Positions 2,657-22,515 of a stretch of DNA of 30,702 nt are shown here, one piece after another. The first letter of the stretch is position 1. Each line of letters begins with the position of its first letter. Source of the stretch: a virus. Under the pieces are notes generated by a model, which had not been told where the DNA came from, made no database searches, and saw only the letters and a list, made by a program, of their open reading frames with translations. The position numbers and the translations under genes are program-made. The stretch spans positions 1-30,702 of IMG/VR virus record IMGVR_UViG_3300035670_000936; one strand, written 5' to 3'.

Positions 2657-3088
2657 ATGGCTAAAATTATTTCAATCACCCCGAAGGGTCAATGGCAGGA
2701 GTTCTACAAGTTAGAGATCCGTTTTGACAATGGAGACTTTGGTACTGCATTTGCTAAATCACCTACCCCGTCTTACGGAGTAGGAGATGAGGTAGAGTAC
2801 TCAAAGAATGAGAAGGGCACAATCAAGATCCAACGACCTAACGGATTTGGTGGAGGTTCTGGAGGCAGCTTTGCCACCGCTTCGAAATCGGCAGGCGATG
2901 ACCGCTCCGCCTCCATCATCCGTCAGGTTGCTCTGAAAGCAGCAGTCGAATATGCATGCGCTGCTAAACACGATGTGCCTACCATTCTGGAGAATGCAGA
3001 GGCGTTTAACCGGTGGATGCTCGGCCAATCAGAGGCTCCGGTTTCGCATGTAGACCATTTCGCAAACCGCAACGATAGTCCGTTCTGA
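2657..3088 (+). CDS. Probable single-stranded DNA-binding protein
   Basis: This 143-residue protein has a compact beta-rich N-terminal half (about 1-60) with VGDEVEYSKNEKGTIKIQRP, consistent with a small OB-like fold. A Gly/Ser-rich linker (GFGGGSGGSF) and a helical segment RSASIIRQVALKAAVEYACA follow. The tail ends NRNDSPF. An acidic or polar tail ending in Pro-Phe is the hallmark by which SSB proteins recruit partners. It sits between a resolvase and a replicative helicase. It could instead be a strand-annealing partner for the RecE-like exonuclease. An ACCAATC leader precedes the ATG and a strong terminator follows. Confidence 0.55.
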   Translation: MAKIISITPKGQWQEFYKLEIRFDNGDFGTAFAKSPTPSYGVGDEVEYSKNEKGTIKIQRPNGFGGGSGGSFATASKSAGDDRSASIIRQVALKAAVEYACAAKHDVPTILENAEAFNRWMLGQSEAPVSHVDHFANRNDSPF

Positions 3089-3178
3089 TTGGTTTCTTCG
3101 GACGTTGCGTAAAGGCCCCACTTCGGTGGGGCTTTTTTATTCCCGAAGGCCTGTATATATTCGTGCTACCAATCAGAA
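3083..3178 (+). repeat. 11-bp inverted repeat bracketing the terminator
   Basis: TTCTGATTGGT (3083-3093, spanning the SSB-like stop codon) is the exact reverse complement of ACCAATCAGAA (3168-3178), the leader of the helicase gene. The pair encloses the intrinsic terminator and the promoter. In a read-through RNA the two arms could pair and bury the leader. Confidence 0.5.
3111..3138 (+). terminator. Strong intrinsic terminator after the SSB-like gene
   Basis: GCCCCAC, a TTCG tetraloop and GTGGGGC form a perfect 7-bp stem. Flanking AAA and TTT pairs extend it, and it runs into six T. Confidence 0.9.
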
Positions 3179-3182
3179 ATAA
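3133..3182 (+). promoter_or_regulatory. Promoter and leader for the helicase operon
   Basis: TATATTCG (3156-3163) resembles TAnnTTTG with one change. The T-run of the terminator (3133-3138) occupies the -33 position about 20 bases upstream. The ACCAATC leader follows at 3168-3174, nine bases before the ATG at 3183. The same TATATTCG octamer occurs at 1551-1558. Confidence 0.45.
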
Positions 3183-4112
3183 ATGAAACACCCAGACTTA
3201 TTACCAAGAGAGGAATCTCTACCCTACCTGCAAAGAGCATTAAAGGGAAAATACTTTGACACCGGGAAACTTGGGATCGAAGAGATCGACCAATACCTTC
3301 GGTTCAAGGACGGAGAGTTTGTAGTCGTAACAGGGCATGCCAATGTGGGGAAGACCCACACGCTGGTTTACTTGATGTTGCTACAAAGTATAAACTTCGG
3401 AAAGAAATGGCTGATCTACTCATCAGAGAACGAGGTCGCATCCCTGAAGCGAAAGCTGATTGAGTTTATGATCTGCAAGCCAATCCAAGCGATCACGGAA
3501 CTCCAGATGCATACCAAATTAGATTGGATCGATGAGCATTTTCAGTTCATTGACGGCAACAGGCTATTTAATGCCTTCGCTCTTCTGGAGACCATGGATA
3601 GCATCAAACAGGAATGGGACTACACGGGAGCATTGATTGATCCGTATAACTCACTCACCACGGATCAGAAGAAACTCGGAAAGACAGGGATGCACGAATA
3701 CCACTACGAGGTGGCAAGTGCCATCCGGGTCTTTGCCCACAAGAATCAGGTTACCACAATAGTCAACACCCACCCTGTTACTGAGGCGATGCGGAAGGTG
3801 CATCATGGGAACCATCCGTACGCAGGGATGCCCATGCCCCCGATGACCTCGGATATTGAAGGAGGCGGAAAGTGGGGAAACAGGGCTGATGCCGTAGTAA
3901 TTATACACCGGTACGCCCAACATCCGGAGGATTGGGTTTACACACATATTCATGTGCGTAAGGTCAAAGAGATGGAAACAGGGGGCCGTGTTACTCCTCT
4001 GGAGCAGCCCATCACCATGCGGTCGATTGTGGGGAATGTTGGTTTCTCGATCAACAATCGTAATTTGCTACAGCAATCAGAACCAATTACCTATACCAAT
4101 GAGCCATTTTGA
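3183..4112 (+). CDS. DnaB-type replicative helicase (RecA-like ATPase domain only)
   Basis: This 309-residue ATPase likely unwinds DNA at the phage fork. Walker A is GHANVGKT at 51-58. A DnaB-like SSEN follows at 80-83, Walker B is LIDPYNSL at 151-158, and NTHP at 195-198 is the sensor-like motif typical of DnaB and Twinkle helicases. It lacks the N-terminal DnaB domain and any primase or zinc-finger domain, so priming must come from elsewhere. The start has its own promoter and leader. The end overlaps the next gene by 14 bases. A RadA/KaiC-like recombination ATPase is a less likely alternative. Confidence 0.8.
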   Translation: MKHPDLLPREESLPYLQRALKGKYFDTGKLGIEEIDQYLRFKDGEFVVVTGHANVGKTHTLVYLMLLQSINFGKKWLIYSSENEVASLKRKLIEFMICKPIQAITELQMHTKLDWIDEHFQFIDGNRLFNAFALLETMDSIKQEWDYTGALIDPYNSLTTDQKKLGKTGMHEYHYEVASAIRVFAHKNQVTTIVNTHPVTEAMRKVHHGNHPYAGMPMPPMTSDIEGGGKWGNRADAVVIIHRYAQHPEDWVYTHIHVRKVKEMETGGRVTPLEQPITMRSIVGNVGFSINNRNLLQQSEPITYTNEPF

Positions 4113-4410: not shown

Positions 4411-4637
4411 AACAGATATTCTCGCCATTCCAGAAGTACGAGTGCTTTCAAGTGGATGGAGTTGACTACATCTGCTTGGACTATCAGATCATCCAAGACT
4501 CGGAAGACAAACTTGTGGAGTGGTGTTCGTGGTTTAAGTTCAAGAGACTATCAGATCACAAGCACTACCTACTACCAATTACCAAAATTTTAGAAACCAA
4601 AAATGAGGGCAGAGCAAAACTCTGCAAATGCAAATGA
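4407..4637 (+). CDS. Small protein of unknown function
   Basis: 76 residues, starting with GTG at a 4-base GTGA overlap with the coiled-coil gene and ending in an ATGA overlap with the next gene, which strongly suggests translational coupling. It contains YECFQVDGVDYICLDYQI, an alternating hydrophobic pattern consistent with a small beta sheet, and ends Cys-Lys-rich (KLCKCK). No family recognised. Confidence 0.55.
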   Translation: MKQIFSPFQKYECFQVDGVDYICLDYQIIQDSEDKLVEWCSWFKFKRLSDHKHYLLPITKILETKNEGRAKLCKCK

Positions 4638-4867
4638 AAACAGCAATGCAAGAAATGTTGGAATGGGTTAGAACAACCCTGCCAATGGATTTAGAAACAC
4701 CAATGCTCATTGAGAAGAAAATTGAATCTTTACTTCAGAAAGAGAAGGAGCAGATGATTGAATTTGCAAGGAATATAATTATAGATGCCGTTTGTAGCGT
4801 TGAAGGTTATGTTACGACTGAAAAAGATATTGAAGAATACTACAACGAAACCTACAACAAGCAATGA
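4634..4867 (+). CDS. Small phage protein, paralogue of the gene at 9314
   Basis: 77 residues. The start at 4634 is chosen over an ATG six bases upstream for two reasons: it forms an ATGA overlap with the previous stop, and its N-terminus MKTAMQEM aligns with the paralogue's MKTPMQEL. The shared core is LLQKEKEQMIE. The C-terminus reads EEYYNETYNK, a pattern I associate from memory with a small family common in Bacteroidota phages. It is helical and acidic. Function unknown. Confidence 0.6.
   Translation: MKTAMQEMLEWVRTTLPMDLETPMLIEKKIESLLQKEKEQMIEFARNIIIDAVCSVEGYVTTEKDIEEYYNETYNKQ
4731..4761 (+). repeat. Direct repeat copy 1 (with 9411-9441)
   Basis: These 31 bases match 9411-9441 at 30 positions; the core is GAGAAGGAGCAGATGATTGA. 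Both copies code for the KEKEQMI motif of two paralogous small genes. That level of nucleotide identity points to a fairly recent duplication or gene conversion. Confidence 0.6.
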
Positions 4868-5277
4868 GAGCATTTGAAGTTCAAAGAATCAAACAAGCCA
4901 AGAATCTGTACTACGCAACTCTGGGCATGAAGGAGAAAGATGATAGGAGCAGAAACCAAGCTCTTGCTCGTTCTGCTTTCCTCAATGCCTTCAGGCCTTA
5001 TGCCACTCTGGAGGAGATGGGTAAGATCCTGTGCCGAGACCATAGCACGATGACCTATGCCCTGAAAGAGCATAACTATCGGCTGAACCATGATGACTAT
5101 CGGCACATGTACAATATCGCCTGCATGGTCAGGGACAAGACCGACCTTGACCCTATGGAGGTTTATGACATCCACGGATTGCAGGATGAGATAAAAAGAC
5201 TCAACGAGATTATTACCGAGTTAATTCAGTACAAGGAAATATACTTGAAACTGAAAACAACATTCGATGAGTTTTAA
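4864..5277 (+). CDS. DnaA domain IV-like DNA-binding protein
   Basis: 137 residues starting at an ATGA overlap. Residues 35-70 read like the DNA-binding domain IV of DnaA: a helix, then ATLEEMGKILCRDHSTMTYA, where RDHST at 58-62 is the DnaA signature loop and helix that contacts the DnaA box. There is no AAA+ ATPase domain. The C-terminal third (DEIKRLNEIITELIQYKEIY) is a coiled coil, likely for dimerisation. It may mark the phage origin, compete with host DnaA, or act as a regulator. It follows the helicase by three small genes. The domain match is seen by eye; the role is inferred. Confidence 0.7.
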   Translation: MRAFEVQRIKQAKNLYYATLGMKEKDDRSRNQALARSAFLNAFRPYATLEEMGKILCRDHSTMTYALKEHNYRLNHDDYRHMYNIACMVRDKTDLDPMEVYDIHGLQDEIKRLNEIITELIQYKEIYLKLKTTFDEF

Positions 5278-10026: not shown

Positions 10027-10308
10027 ATGCGAGAACAATTTATGCGGATCGCTATGGCACGTTTGCGTAGCACCTATCTGTTCAAGCCCCAACGTAGGGC
10101 AGTAGCTGCAAAGATGTGGGTGCAGTATCTGGAGAGGCATGCCATGAATGAATGGATGCGGACAGAGCAAGAGATCGCCCATGCAGGATACCATACCCCC
10201 TGTTCAAACCATCAGCGAGACCTTGAATGGGAAATGCGGGAAGAGGAACTAAACAAGAGGATGGACATCATCGGTCAGAACGGCAATACAGGGGAACACT
10301 ATGAGTAG
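10027..10308 (+). CDS. Small basic helical protein of unknown function
   Basis: 93 residues, Arg- and Met-rich at the start (MREQFMRIAMARLRSTYLF) and acidic toward the end (EWEMREEELNKRMD). A variant leader ACCAAGCAAAG precedes the ATG. It overlaps the first glycosyltransferase gene by eight bases. It is the last small gene before the modification island. No family recognised. Confidence 0.5.
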   Translation: MREQFMRIAMARLRSTYLFKPQRRAVAAKMWVQYLERHAMNEWMRTEQEIAHAGYHTPCSNHQRDLEWEMREEELNKRMDIIGQNGNTGEHYE

Positions 10309-11242
10309 GCCACTCGTTCTGGCGTTTCACAAGCAGAACTCCGGTGTTACATACCATCGGGTATTTGCTCCCCTGATCTGCCATCAAGAGGCGGACGTTT
10401 ACTTCATCGAGAAGATTACAGATGTAGAGCCATCCATCTGGGAAAAGGTTACCCACATATTTGCAAGCCGTGCTTTTCCGGTAGAGCCATTTGAGGACTT
10501 TGTAAAGTTGTGCCGGAAGGAGGGAATCAAACTAATAGTGGACCAAGACGACTGGTGGGTATTGCCCCCAAACCATCCACTCAAAGGATTCTTTGCGGAT
10601 CAGATGAAGACAAGGATCATTCGCTCCATGAAGGCGGCTGATGAGGTCTGGGTAACCAACAAGCACCTTGCATCAAAGGTCAGGAAATACAATAGCAATA
10701 TTCGGATTGTGCCTAATGCTATTAGCGTACCCACTTGGCAAATCAACAGAGAGCCGTCTGACAAAGTGCGGTTCGGGTATATTGGGGGGAACCATCACCA
10801 AGCGGATGTAAAGGCATCAGGAATCGATCTAACGGGCTACGAGGCCTATGTTGCTGATGTGGATGGCTACCCCCAGATGATGAAAGCAGCATACACGCTC
10901 AAAACGTTCCCACCGAACTCATACCATCGCCTGTATGACTTCTTTGACGTTAGTTTGGTTCCGTTGGTCGGATCAGAGTTTGCCAAGTGCAAATCGCATC
11001 TAAAGATGCTTGAGGCGGGCTTTAGCAAATGTGCCCTGATCGTGAGTAACACTCACCCTTATACTCCGTACATCACCAAAGAGAATTGCATCGCCATCAA
11101 CCATCCGTCAGAATGGGCAGTAGCGATCAAGAGATTAAACGATAACCCTAACCAAGTCCATGACATAGCAGAATCGCTATATGAGTTCGTACAAGACTTC
11201 ACGATGGACAAAATCAACCAACTGAGATGCTTTACATTGTAA
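10301..11242 (+). CDS. GT-B fold glycosyltransferase
   Basis: 313 residues with the two-domain look of GT4-like enzymes. The N-terminal half (about 1-150) has alternating strands and helices, including KLIVDQDDWWVLPPNHP and VWVTNKHLASKVRKY. The C-terminal half begins KVRFGYIGGNHH and includes DVSLVPLVGSEFAKCKSHLK and LEAGFSKCALIVSNT, the typical donor-nucleotide region with a glutamate near the sugar. Substrate is unknown: modified phage DNA bases or virion proteins are both possible. It overlaps a second glycosyltransferase gene by 16 bases. Confidence 0.75.
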   Translation: MSRPLVLAFHKQNSGVTYHRVFAPLICHQEADVYFIEKITDVEPSIWEKVTHIFASRAFPVEPFEDFVKLCRKEGIKLIVDQDDWWVLPPNHPLKGFFADQMKTRIIRSMKAADEVWVTNKHLASKVRKYNSNIRIVPNAISVPTWQINREPSDKVRFGYIGGNHHQADVKASGIDLTGYEAYVADVDGYPQMMKAAYTLKTFPPNSYHRLYDFFDVSLVPLVGSEFAKCKSHLKMLEAGFSKCALIVSNTHPYTPYITKENCIAINHPSEWAVAIKRLNDNPNQVHDIAESLYEFVQDFTMDKINQLRCFTL

Positions 11243-13872: not shown

Positions 13873-14213
13873 CAACGACTGACATTAAAAAAGGGCAGAT
13901 GATTGAAGCCCTTGAGAAATCGCTCGGGATTGTAACTACGGCTACCAAGTCCGTGGGAATATCCAGAGAGACCCACTACCGATGGCTGAAAGAGGATCCG
14001 GAGTACAAAGAGAAAGTCGATAGCATCGGAGATATGGCTCTTGACTTTGCGGAGAGCCAATTGCACAAACAGATCAGGGAGGGCAATTCTACGGCTACGA
14101 TATTTTTCCTGAAGACAAAGGGCAAGAATCGGGGATACATCGAAAGACAAGAAGTCCAGCAGACAACAGAAAACTTATTCAATGTCCGCATACTCGGAGA
14201 TTCAAACGAATAA
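13869..14213 (+). CDS. terS: Small terminase subunit
   Basis: 114 residues directly upstream of the large terminase and overlapping it by 32 bases. A helix-turn-helix is visible at about 18-42 (LGIVTTATKSVGISRETHYR), fitting the DNA-binding domain that recognises the packaging site. The middle is helical for oligomerisation. Small terminases are poorly conserved, so the call rests on the HTH and position. The start forms an ATGA overlap with the glycosyltransferase stop. Confidence 0.8.
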   Translation: MTTTDIKKGQMIEALEKSLGIVTTATKSVGISRETHYRWLKEDPEYKEKVDSIGDMALDFAESQLHKQIREGNSTATIFFLKTKGKNRGYIERQEVQQTTENLFNVRILGDSNE

Positions 14214-15348
14214 GGTATTTGCTCACCTCGAGAGATCAGAGAAACGAATCACGGTTGAGCAGGGGGGTACCCGTTCCGGGAAGACCTACAACATCCTGTT
14301 ATGGATCATCTTCAGCTATTCGGTAAAGGAGAAGAGCAAGACAATCACCATTTGCCGCAAATCATTTCCATCACTCCGGGCATCTGTGATGCGGGACTTC
14401 TTCGACATCCTACGTCAGTATAACCTCTACCGAGAGGAACATCATAACAAGTCCAACTCAGAGTACTATCTGAATGGGAACTTGATTGAGTTCATCTCAC
14501 TTGACCAGCCCCAGAAGATCAGAGGGCGAAAACGGAACCTGTTGTACATCAACGAGGCCAATGAACTCTTTTACGAGGATTGGCAGCAGTTGATATTCCG
14601 TACCGATGGCAAGGTGATCCTTGACTATAACCCGTCAGATGCGTTTCACTGGATCTACGACAAGGTGCTGACCCGTGAGGACTGCGAGTTCTATCAGACC
14701 ACCTACAAGGACAATCCGTTTCTGGATGAAACAATTATACAGGAGATCGAACGACTGAAGGGAACGGATGATGACTATTGGCGGGTCTATGGTCTGGGAG
14801 AACGTGGCATGAGTCGTGCTACGATTTTTCAGTTTGGACTCCATGACATTCCGCAAGAGGCGAGTCTGCTATCGTACGGACTTGACTTCGGTTTTACGAA
14901 TGACCCCAGCACATTGGTAGCAGTATACAAGTCCGGAGACAACCTTTATCTGGATGAGCTATTTTACCAAACAGGAATGACCAACCCAGATATTGCCAAC
15001 CGGCTGAAGGATCTGGGGCTTGACCGGAGGTCCGAGATCTTTGCCGATAGCGCAGAACCGAAGAGCATCGAGGAATTGCACAGGATGGGGTGGAATGTAA
15101 AGCCGACCCAGAAGGGCAACGATTCGATCAACGTGGGCATTGATATGCTGAAGAGACATAGACTATTCATCACCCCACGAAGCAAGAATCTGGAAAAAGA
15201 ATTGCAGAACTACAAGTGGGTCGAAGACAAGAACGGAAACCTGCTTAACAAGCCCATAGATGCGTTCAACCATGCGATTGATGCCGTCCGCTATGCGGCC
15301 TACAATAAGTTGAGCAGACCTAATTACGGCAGGTATGCCATACGTTAA
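14182..15348 (+). CDS. terL: Large terminase subunit (packaging ATPase and nuclease)
   Basis: This 388-residue motor pumps DNA into the prohead and cuts it. Walker A is GGTRSGKT (28-35) and Walker B with catalytic Glu is LLYINEAN (120-127). The nuclease domain shows YGLDFGFTNDP (Asp235), FADSAEPKSI (Asp289) and FNHAIDAVRYA (Asp367). It resembles the PBSX-like Terminase_3 family and is near its usual length (about 400). Packaging strategy cannot be read from this alone. The portal gene lies 11.6 kb away, which is unusual. Confidence 0.95.
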   Translation: MSAYSEIQTNKVFAHLERSEKRITVEQGGTRSGKTYNILLWIIFSYSVKEKSKTITICRKSFPSLRASVMRDFFDILRQYNLYREEHHNKSNSEYYLNGNLIEFISLDQPQKIRGRKRNLLYINEANELFYEDWQQLIFRTDGKVILDYNPSDAFHWIYDKVLTREDCEFYQTTYKDNPFLDETIIQEIERLKGTDDDYWRVYGLGERGMSRATIFQFGLHDIPQEASLLSYGLDFGFTNDPSTLVAVYKSGDNLYLDELFYQTGMTNPDIANRLKDLGLDRRSEIFADSAEPKSIEELHRMGWNVKPTQKGNDSINVGIDMLKRHRLFITPRSKNLEKELQNYKWVEDKNGNLLNKPIDAFNHAIDAVRYAAYNKLSRPNYGRYAIR

Positions 15349-15370: not shown

Positions 15371-16084
15371 ATGGAACTCAAGGTAATTGTACCCACCACC
15401 CTATCAGAGATCACCCTCGAGCAGTACCAAAGGTTTGCTCGCCTTGAGGGGGATGAGGAATTTCTAACCCATAAGATGCTGGAGATCTTTTGCGGTGTGC
15501 CATTGGATCAGTTGCCCAAAGTCCGGTTTGCAAGTGTTGCGAATGTGATGAGGCACATCAACGCCATGCTATCAGAGCGTCCTGCGTTGAAGCAAGAGTT
15601 CACCATTGGAGAACAGACGTTTGGGTTCATACCCAACCTCGAAGAGATGACCTTTGGCGAGTACGTGGATCTGGACAATTACATGAGTGATGTACAGAAT
15701 ATGCACATGACTATGGCGGTCTTGTACCGGCCTATAATTGAACGTGCCCATAAGAGGTATGACATAGAGCCATACGAATCAGCACACAAATACTCGGACG
15801 TAATGAAGCAGGCACCTATGGACGTTGTGATGGGGGCTACGCTTTTTTTTTATCGTTTAGGAAACGACTTACTGACCGCTACTCTGAACTATTTGGAGAA
15901 CCCCAAAACGAATACACACCAGAAGCGCAATTTGGAGCAAAGTGGGGATGGTACTCTTCATTCCATCAACTCGCTCAAGGGGATGTTACGAGATTTGAAA
16001 GAGTTGGAAAACTTGGAGTTCATGAGGCCTTCACATTTCTCGTTTTTGAAAAAGAACGATACGACATTGAGCGAAAGCAATTAG
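15371..16084 (+). CDS. Tail assembly chaperone, unshifted product (gpG-like)
   Basis: 237 residues in the zero frame. The N-terminal domain (about 1-160) reads LSEITLEQYQRFARLEGDEE, then KMLEIFCGVPLDQLPKV, then FGFIPNLEEMTFGEYVDLDN, features I recall from a conserved Bacteroidota phage family. Near codon 158 a run of nine T (15843-15851) allows a -1 shift. Without the shift the frame continues for about 77 more codons with a Lys/Ser/Leu-rich tail (SINSLKGMLRDLKELENL). It sits after the terminase and before the tail terminator gene. Tail chaperones coat the tape measure during tail assembly. The role is inferred from position and the frameshift design. Confidence 0.65.
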   Translation: MELKVIVPTTLSEITLEQYQRFARLEGDEEFLTHKMLEIFCGVPLDQLPKVRFASVANVMRHINAMLSERPALKQEFTIGEQTFGFIPNLEEMTFGEYVDLDNYMSDVQNMHMTMAVLYRPIIERAHKRYDIEPYESAHKYSDVMKQAPMDVVMGATLFFYRLGNDLLTATLNYLENPKTNTHQKRNLEQSGDGTLHSINSLKGMLRDLKELENLEFMRPSHFSFLKKNDTTLSESN

Positions 16085-16101
16085 AAAAACTAAAGAAATG
16101 A
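15371..16101 (+). CDS. Tail assembly chaperone, -1 frameshift fusion (gpGT-like)
   Basis: Joins codons 15371-15850 to the -1 frame from 15850 to TGA at 16099-16101, giving 243 residues. The shifted part has 83 stop-free codons and looks like real protein: LTDRYSELFGEPQNEY, then FGAKWGWYSSFHQLAQGDV, then FTFLVFEKERYDIERKQLEK. The W-W-x(n)-LAxGD-x(n)-LxFEK pattern is typical of frameshifted tail chaperone ends. Its stop overlaps the next gene's start as ATGA, whereas the zero-frame stop lies 14 bases earlier. The slip site is T9 (15843-15851). Slippage may occur on the ribosome or during transcription. Confidence 0.7.
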
Positions 16102-16565
16102 GGCAGTTTTACGACATCACCAAAAAGCTCAAGGATGCCCTTGCAGCGCATAGCCAAGTTAATGTGGTTACGACCGGGGACATCTTTGATGTGGACTTAA
16201 ACAAGCAGAGCATTTTCCCTTTGAGCCACATCATTGTGAACCAAGCAACATTCGATGGGCAAACAGTCCTGATGAACGTATCGCTCGTTTGCATGGATCT
16301 GGTGGATGAAACCAAAGAGGATCTGAGAGATCAGGCAGAGCCGTTTTATGGGATCAGCAACGAGCAGGATATTCTAAATACCCAACTTGCGGTGATTAAC
16401 GATGTGGTTACGGAATTGCGGAGAGGAACGCTATACTCCGACCTCTACCAATTAGAAGGTCAGGCTACGGCAGTTCCGTTCACAGAGCGTTTTGAGAACC
16501 TTCTTGCTGGATGGACGGCTACGTTTGACGTAAGACTTGCCAATACCGAAATATCTATTTGCTAA
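16098..16565 (+). CDS. Tail terminator / tail completion-like protein
   Basis: 155 residues beginning MRQFYDITKKLKDALAAHSQ, then VTTGDIFDVDLNKQSIFPLSH, then ISNEQDILNTQLAVINDVV and RFENLLAGWTATFDVRL. I recall this set of motifs from structural proteins of Flavobacterium and Cellulophaga phages. Size, the strand-rich C-terminus and position after the chaperone fit a tail-end or neck completion protein. The assignment is by pattern and context, not by a defined family. Confidence 0.6.
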   Translation: MRQFYDITKKLKDALAAHSQVNVVTTGDIFDVDLNKQSIFPLSHIIVNQATFDGQTVLMNVSLVCMDLVDETKEDLRDQAEPFYGISNEQDILNTQLAVINDVVTELRRGTLYSDLYQLEGQATAVPFTERFENLLAGWTATFDVRLANTEISIC

Positions 16566-20500: not shown

Positions 20501-20647
20501 ATGAAGCCAAGCTATTTAGGTTATTTAATCGAATTACTGCAGGCAAGCGAGTATCGTAATGCACCGGAGACAATTGAGATTGCAAAGGGCAAGTATGCTA
20601 TTCCAAAGACATGGCAGGAGTTTCTAAAACGTAGACGATGGCCGTAG
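20501..20647 (+). CDS. 48-residue protein before the tape measure
   Basis: A frame starting two bases after the previous stop and overlapping the tape measure start by ten bases. The protein begins MKPSYLGYLIELLQASEYRN and ends in WQEFLKRRRWP. Helical and basic at its C-terminus. The tight packing and protein-like composition support a real gene. It may be a tail-tip or tape-measure accessory; no family recognised. Confidence 0.6.
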   Translation: MKPSYLGYLIELLQASEYRNAPETIEIAKGKYAIPKTWQEFLKRRRWP

Positions 20648-22515
20648 TTGAAAACATAAAGATTCAGGGAGATACTTCAGGGTTTCAGCAGCAGATTGAT
20701 GCGCTAAACAAAAAGATCGAGGAACTTGAGAAAAAACTTGGCAGTACGCAAGATGCTACTGCTGATTTAGGTAAGGAGGCCAAAAAGACAGGTACTGCCA
20801 TCAGCAAAACATTTAATGGGCTGAAAAAGGTAGTTACCGCACCTTTTGAACTTGCAAAGAAAGCAGCATCCGGATTGGGAACGCTACTAAAGGGCGGTCT
20901 TGGTCTGGGTTTAATTGTTGGTGCGGTAGACAAACTATCCGAATCATTTAATGCCAACCAAAAGGTAGTCGATGCCGTGAACAAGGTCATGACTACCCTG
21001 AGCATAATCTTCAACCAGATCACCGAAGCGATCTTCGGAGCAGTAGAAGAGCAGAGCAAACTAAATGGTGGCTTTGACGCAACGAAAAAGGTATTAGGCG
21101 GGCTTATTAGTGGCGTGCTTAACGTATTCGTTGGGATCATTCAGGGAATCAAACTTGCGGTGCAGGAGGTTCAGCTTGCATGGGAACAATCATTTTTTGG
21201 AGACAAGGATGCTACACGCATCAAGGAACTAAACAAGGAGATTGCAGTAACCCGTGAAGAGCTGAAAAAGACGGGAGAGAATCTGCTCGAATCCGGTAAG
21301 ATGGTGGTAAACAATCTTGCGGAAGCAGCAAGTGAGGTAGCCAACACGGTGGTCGCAGTCGCTACAAAGGTTGCTAAGACGGTTCAGGAACTTGATGTAA
21401 CAAAGGCCATCAATCAGGCCGAGCGTCTTGTGGAGTTGCAGAAGGCAGCGGCTCTTGCTGAGGTGCAACGGCAAAAAATACAATTAGAGTTCCAGAATAC
21501 GCAAGAGCAATTGCGGCAGTTGCGTGATGATGAGCAAAACTCTATTGCAGAACGCCAGAAGGCGAATGCTGACCTTTTAGCATCCTTGCAGCAACAGGCA
21601 GAGTTAGAGCGTGAACAAATAAAGATCAAGGTAGCAGCAATCGCTGCGGAGTATGAGATCAACAAGACCAATGAGAACCTTGTAGCCCTGAAGCAGGCGC
21701 AGTTGGAACTCACGGACTTGGATGAGCGTTTACAGGGTCAAAAGTCAGAAGCGCTTGCCAATCAGAACTCCTTGCTAAAGGAGCAATTGGAGATTGACAA
21801 GGGTATTGCCGCAACAGACCAAGAGATCTTTGAGATCCAACAGAATGCTCAACTCGAACTTCTGGACAATGAGGTAGCCGTAGCTGAGAAGCAGATCGAG
21901 ATTGCCGAAAACGTGTTCCAGAAAAAGAAAGCATTGCTGGAGGCCGAGATTGCAACATTTAAGGAGGGAACCGCCCAGAGAGCAGAAGCCGAAAATGCAC
22001 TGAAGGTATTGGAGGCAGAGAATGCAGCAGGTCGTTTGCAGTTAGAGAAAAATCTGCAAGAGGCGAAACTTGCTACCATCAAAGGTGCATTGCAAGGTGT
22101 TGCTCAACTCGTTGGGGAAAACACGGTACTCGGAAAAGCCATCGCTTTGGCACAGGTAACGATTGACACCTACACAGGTGCTACTAAAGCCCTTGCTCAG
22201 GGTGGTATATTCGGTTACATCGGTGCGGCAGGTATCATCGCATCGGGTATTGCTAATGCACGTCAGATTACGGCAACGCAGGTACCTACGGAGGCATCCG
22301 GTGCAACAGGTGGGGGATCCACCATCACCAACACTTTAAGTCAGCCAGCGCAGCCTGCTCAATTCAACATTGTGGGACAATCTGGAATCAACCAACTTGC
22401 ACAGACCATCGGCAGTCAGTTCAACCAACCTGTCAGAGCTTACGTAGTCGGTCAGGATGTAACCACCGCACAACAATTAGAACGCCAACGAGTAAAAACT
22501 GCAACATTCGGATGA
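20638..22515 (+). CDS. Tape measure protein
   Basis: 625 residues. It sets tail length and helps DNA pass into the host. The N-terminus is a coiled coil (QQIDALNKKIEELEKKLGST), followed by a hydrophobic Gly-rich segment (LKGGLGLGLIVGAV). A long Gln/Ala/Glu-rich coiled coil spans about 250-480. A second hydrophobic region is GIFGYIGAAGIIASGIANA, and the C-terminus ends VRAYVVGQDVTTAQQ, typical of Bacteroidota phages. At roughly 0.15 nm per residue, the length would predict a tail near 90 nm. This supports a siphovirus form. A contractile sheath gene is not visible. Confidence 0.85.
   Translation: MAVVENIKIQGDTSGFQQQIDALNKKIEELEKKLGSTQDATADLGKEAKKTGTAISKTFNGLKKVVTAPFELAKKAASGLGTLLKGGLGLGLIVGAVDKLSESFNANQKVVDAVNKVMTTLSIIFNQITEAIFGAVEEQSKLNGGFDATKKVLGGLISGVLNVFVGIIQGIKLAVQEVQLAWEQSFFGDKDATRIKELNKEIAVTREELKKTGENLLESGKMVVNNLAEAASEVANTVVAVATKVAKTVQELDVTKAINQAERLVELQKAAALAEVQRQKIQLEFQNTQEQLRQLRDDEQNSIAERQKANADLLASLQQQAELEREQIKIKVAAIAAEYEINKTNENLVALKQAQLELTDLDERLQGQKSEALANQNSLLKEQLEIDKGIAATDQEIFEIQQNAQLELLDNEVAVAEKQIEIAENVFQKKKALLEAEIATFKEGTAQRAEAENALKVLEAENAAGRLQLEKNLQEAKLATIKGALQGVAQLVGENTVLGKAIALAQVTIDTYTGATKALAQGGIFGYIGAAGIIASGIANARQITATQVPTEASGATGGGSTITNTLSQPAQPAQFNIVGQSGINQLAQTIGSQFNQPVRAYVVGQDVTTAQQLERQRVKTATFG

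Follow-up and report, generated by a model that had tools for sequence, protein, structure and literature searches.

A conserved run of nine Ts as the probable site of a programmed -1 frame transition with long dual coding in viruses of Bacteroidota

The gene that lies directly downstream of the large terminase gene in the virus record analysed here (the whole 30.7-kb stretch of DNA, referred to below as the window) very probably encodes two products, which are generated by a programmed -1 transition between reading frames at a run of nine Ts (T9). The T9 run, the C-terminal domain encoded in the -1 frame and the junction are conserved throughout the family, and the frame transition is therefore taken to be programmed. 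The C-terminal tail encoded in the zero frame is itself selected in most of the family, so that 50-88 codons would be dual coded. The two proposed proteins would have their first 160 residues in common. The bulk of the product presumably ends in the zero frame, as a protein of 237 aa, if the majority product can be assumed from lambda, while a minority would shift into the -1 frame at T9 and acquire a helical C-terminal domain instead, giving a protein of 243 aa. The two forms are likely to constitute a tail-assembly chaperone pair analogous to lambda G/GT, in which the shared part may bind one partner (the tape measure protein) and the -1 domain another (the tail tube). The features of the region are as follows.

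14182..15348, + strand: large terminase subunit, directly upstream of the frameshift gene (phrog_2, E 1.3e-46)
15371..15850, + strand: shared N-terminal part, 160 aa, common to both proposed products (open reading frame; conserved in the alignment; phrog_32199; predicted fold)
15843..15851, + strand: T9 slip run, with T_TTT_TTT (15844-15850) in zero-frame phase (homologues; synonymous counts at the slip codons)
15851..16084, + strand: zero-frame C-terminal tail, 77 codons and a stop (open frame in homologues; synonymous constraint on the -1 frame)
15850..16101, + strand: -1-frame C-terminal domain, 83 codons and TGA (conserved motif; AlphaFold2; start-free segment)
16098..16565, + strand: next gene, 155 aa, phrog_30964, whose ATG overlaps the -1 stop codon as ATGA
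20638..22515, + strand: probable tape measure protein, four genes after the frameshift gene (phrog_1538, E 8e-7)

The zero-frame open reading frame (15371-16084) specifies 237 aa and has its stop codon at 16082-16084, 77 sense codons after the slip, and the -1 frame, entered at 15850, runs for 83 codons without a stop to a TGA (16099-16101) which overlaps the ATG of the next gene (16098) in the form ATGA. An earlier sequence-only reading had placed the T9 run, the zero-frame stop, the 83-codon -1 frame and the ATGA overlap at these coordinates, and each of them was reproduced. The T9 run by itself is unremarkable, because about one run of this kind is expected by chance in the window, in which 15843-15851 is the only run of nine Ts or nine As. 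Between the frameshift gene and the probable tape measure gene lie four tail-module genes without a known function, and a Flagellimonas prophage has a gene order similar to that of the window's terminase-to-tape-measure region. The match of the shared N-terminal part to phrog_32199 (E 2.7e-22) extends over residues 3-173.

The family comprises hundreds of viruses of Bacteroidota, and searches of viral contigs with either the zero-frame or the -1-frame sequence lead to the same loci. In the first set of homologues that was assembled, the run consists of exactly nine Ts, in a single phase, in all 78 unique sequences. In a wider set, the shared part and the -1 domain stand in a -1 relation at 316 of 317 loci, and among the 208 distinct relatives that have both parts in the shifted relation, the run lies at the same place in every case and is T9 in 206 and T10 in 2. 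Three of the 206 T9 homologues (from Dysgonomonas and Prevotella) have the run in the other register, in which T_TTT_TTT is still in phase, and T9 was found in 14 further loci. The arrangement also occurs in a pair of isolate phages and in the genomes of cultured species. The hidden -1 frameshift that the sequence-only reading had postulated at T9 is thus borne out, and the alignment of homologues, which had been proposed as the check, finds both the T-run and the two frames to be conserved; relatives that lack the run or continuity in the -1 frame, and a sequencing error in the run, had been named as the outcomes that would speak against the frameshift, and both are excluded. Homopolymers are admittedly error prone, and one locus, L317, carries T10, but the suggestion that the run is a sequencing or assembly error, or that the gene is simply broken, has a negligible probability, given that the same run is present in 208 distinct sequences from independent metagenomes, the isolate phage pair and cultured-species genomes, and that both frames are under selection. 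Artefact and chance are both ruled out by the homologues.

L317 (positions 4518-5273; Dysgonomonas sp. 520, NZ_QVMP01000015) is the sole exception to the -1 relation among the 317 loci. It is a second copy of the gene, in which ten Ts in the DNA bring the -1-type domain into the zero frame and a fusion of 251 aa is encoded; L316, the other copy in Dysgonomonas sp. 520, has T9. The T10 of L317 reflects either natural variation in the length of the run or a mistake in assembly.

The conserved C-terminal domain, which occupies about 80-95 codons and carries the motif F..KWGWYSS...LAQGD, is always found in the -1 frame in the 208 distinct homologues. The -1 segment of the window contains no ATG, GTG or TTG codon, and the first 45 codons of the segment are without ATG in 199 of 201 homologues. 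Since it is start-free, the segment can be reached by frame transition only, and independent initiation of the -1 domain, which was considered as an alternative, is ruled out for the window by the lack of a start codon. Among the homologues whose ends are complete, all except 3 have a zero frame that continues for 50-88 codons after the run. In L275 (positions 3001-3761), a member of the wider family, the zero frame stops 19 codons after T9, which reflects either a recent loss or a sequencing error, and in L337 (Flavobacteriaceae genome G207) the T9 is in the second register and the zero tail has about 40 codons, a length between the short and long forms.

Constraint on the overlap was evaluated from synonymous change. 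In pairs of sequences that are neighbours in the tree, differing codons were counted wherever the encoded amino acid is the same, and the counts were set against those expected from the first part of the gene for the same amino acids at the same divergence. In the overlap, the -1 frame shows 0.53 of the expected synonymous change (95% interval over pairs 0.49-0.57), and past the zero-frame stop it shows 0.81 (0.73-0.89), with control values of 1.00 upstream and 1.13 in the downstream gene; for the same -1 domain past the zero-frame stop in the short-tail clade described below, the value is 1.05 (computed over all pairs, which are not independent). The zero frame shows 0.22 of the expected synonymous change in the overlap, and at the three slip codons no synonymous changes occur at all, compared to 46 expected. 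These rates and their controls imply constraint on both frames, with the stronger constraint on the -1 frame. Judged from these patterns of substitution, purifying selection is acting in both frames of the overlap, which thereby qualifies as dual coding, and the earlier proposal that some 230 bases code in two frames at once is supported.

The suppression of synonymous change in the -1 frame is equally strong (0.54, or 0.62 beyond codon 25) at codons which are unable to create a stop in the zero frame, so that what is maintained goes beyond an open frame. This result weighs against an alternative that we consider unlikely, namely that only the -1 product matters and that the zero frame is kept open for coupling to the next gene, or to avoid termination beside the slip, rather than for its amino acids. 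Such an alternative draws on the placement of the zero-frame stop (13 nt before the ATG of the next gene in the window, and 8-86 nt upstream of the -1 stop in relatives), on the faster divergence of the zero-frame sequence than of the -1 sequence, and on two points which argue against a functional long tail, that the structure past residue ~179 is predicted mostly with low confidence and that a long tail is lacking in the short-tail clade and in L275 (19 codons). The zero-frame residues L163, L167, G192 and G194, which are nearly invariant, also weigh against it, although the conservation of G192 and G194 derives in part from the WGW motif of the -1 frame. Selection on the zero-frame tail itself, in most of the family, is the preferred reading.

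The length of the open overlap also exceeds what null models of codon usage produce. When the -1 protein of the window is held fixed and synonymous codons are resampled, a zero frame open for 77 codons arises in 0.4% of draws, and in 1.4% when codons are shuffled within the sequence; when the zero-frame protein is held fixed instead, the -1 frame stays open in 0.04%. The zero frame is open for at least 50 codons in 95 of 97 representatives (less than 90% alike in the -1 part by position-by-position comparison), compared to expectations of 10.5% from codon resampling and 26.5% from the within-sequence shuffle.

The Nonlabens phages P12024L and P12024S (genus Inhavirus) and their relatives combine T9 and the -1 domain with a short, lambda-like zero tail (16-25 codons), and this clade therefore provides a natural control for the long overlap. 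The pairs P12024L_40/41 and P12024S_38/39 are true homologues, in which T9, its phase and the -1 domain are as in the window, but the zero tail has just 25 codons, without long dual coding, and the two parts are annotated as separate hypothetical genes. P12024L_41 (L158, positions 4528-4695) and its equivalent in L159, P12024S_39, most likely represent the domain that the upstream gene reaches in the -1 frame. The -1 domain is conserved in every clade, and the length of the zero tail is variable. The -1 domain would appear to be the older constraint, and the long zero tail either an overprinted extension or a feature lost by Inhavirus, an order which the data do not root.

Tandem slippage by the ribosome and slippage by RNA polymerase both fit these observations, and the choice between them is near even. 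Tandem -1 slippage of the ribosome on T_TTT_TTT, like that on the T_TTT_TTG of P2, has about an even chance of being the operative mechanism. The heptamer is in phase in both of the registers seen, and P2 uses its similar site without a downstream hairpin (PMC3091744); however, ribosomes in E. coli shift on U_UUU_UUU far less readily than on A_AAA_AAG (PMC5009743), and the phase of the heptamer does not discriminate between mechanisms, because any run of nine Ts contains an in-phase heptamer. Slippage of RNA polymerase on T9, which falls just short of an even chance, would generate transcripts that carry an additional U (or lack two) and yield the -1 product by ordinary translation. Bacterial RNA polymerase is known to slip on runs of nine As or Ts (PMC5009743), and the run is T9 or T10, and never T7 or T8, in any homologue. 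This conservation of length gives weak support to polymerase slippage, because each of the two Ts outside the heptamer is also the second base of a codon for a hydrophobic residue, and constraint on the protein could preserve them; 100% T is likewise found in 18 of 54 comparable upstream columns and in 5 of 20 in the -1 part. Transcripts shifted in the opposite direction would stop within about 3 codons, the third codon of the +1 frame being a stop in 193 of 201 homologues, but the two protein frames probably impose this early termination. Two further points favour the polymerase: a search for a downstream RNA stimulator or hairpin found none (mean z -0.06 over 78 representatives), which fits ribosomal slippage of the P2 kind as well, and the ten Ts in the DNA of L317 put the -1 domain in the zero frame. 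It is conceivable, though doubtful, that the family is an unrecognised phage assembly family in which two functional C-terminal domains are overprinted on about 60-80 codons and their ratio is set by slippage of RNA polymerase, and not of the ribosome, on an invariant T9.

The -1 domain is predicted by AlphaFold2 to be compact and all-helical (pLDDT 91.6), and the shared N-terminal part is predicted mostly at pLDDT 72-94. In the zero-frame protein a long helix is predicted across the slip, and the low-confidence tail contains one weak helix (one row from a phage record was left out of the prediction input). Sequence searches of Pfam, NCBIfam and PDB and a fold search of PDB gave no match. Seven of 73 members match phrog_166, annotated as "tail protein", but weakly (best E 3e-5), and the single annotated chaperone that was matched by fold is also a weak hit (E 0.14). 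No description of this family or its frameshift was found in open-access papers.

One protein from a different phage came to attention through its fold. A 191-aa protein of Flavobacterium phage 6H (L320, positions 10048-10927, minus strand) has fold similarity at E 2e-4 and ends in CFFYSTR at a T6 run, which is followed by about 300 unannotated bases with an open -1 stretch. It is possibly an unannotated frameshifted chaperone, although a -1 stop comes directly after T6; as a clear T9 relative it was rejected, the similarity being one of fold only.

The sequence-only reading had described the gene as a tail chaperone, compared it with the lambda type, and found that its -1 frame reads like a true chaperone end. 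The conserved C-terminal domain in the -1 frame has proved to be real, but the assignment to the chaperone class is weakened by the lack of a family match, the different gene position and the weak tail hits. A G/GT-like pair is a plausible best guess, by analogy, from the shared N-terminus, the -1 product and the place in the tail module. Like lambda gpG/gpGT, the gene combines a common N-terminus with a -1 transition to another C-terminal domain and lies in a tail module, and the joining of upstream and -1 open reading frames by a conserved slippery site, by which lambda-type systems are recognised, is seen at 316 of 317 loci. It has no detectable sequence homology to lambda-type chaperone families, however, and slips at T9 where lambda slips at G_GGA_AAG. 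A short zero tail, another lambda-type feature, is present or nearly so only in the Inhavirus clade (16-25 codons), and is absent from the window, in which the distance from slip to stop is 231 nt, compared to a measured 15 nt in lambda, roughly 17 nt in P2, counted from the slip site in its annotation, and published averages of 26 nt and 36 nt (PMC10885494), so the dual-coded stretch is as unusually long as had been claimed. The gene follows the large terminase, while its lambda counterpart lies between the major tail protein and the tape measure. The P2 E/E+E' system shares a U-rich site without a downstream hairpin (PMC3091744) and differs in the early end of its zero frame and in that E+E' abuts the tape measure gene.

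The run in Shigella mxiE/spa13 is also nine Ts long, and we know of no long conserved dual-coded domain in that system. Its transcriptional slippage on the T-run (PMC5009743) may represent a shared mechanism; the proteins are unrelated.

Frameshifts in tail chaperone genes are a classic form of programmed recoding, in which the zero frame is left almost at once. The present family, which is large and unannotated in viruses of Bacteroidota, would instead have a pair of C-terminal domains encoded by the same DNA segment. The protein is missed or divided by gene callers, and frameshift predictors whose training relied on short distances from slip to stop would probably overlook an arrangement of this kind. 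Because sister clades carry the short and the long arrangement, the cost and the function of long dual coding can be tested by comparison.
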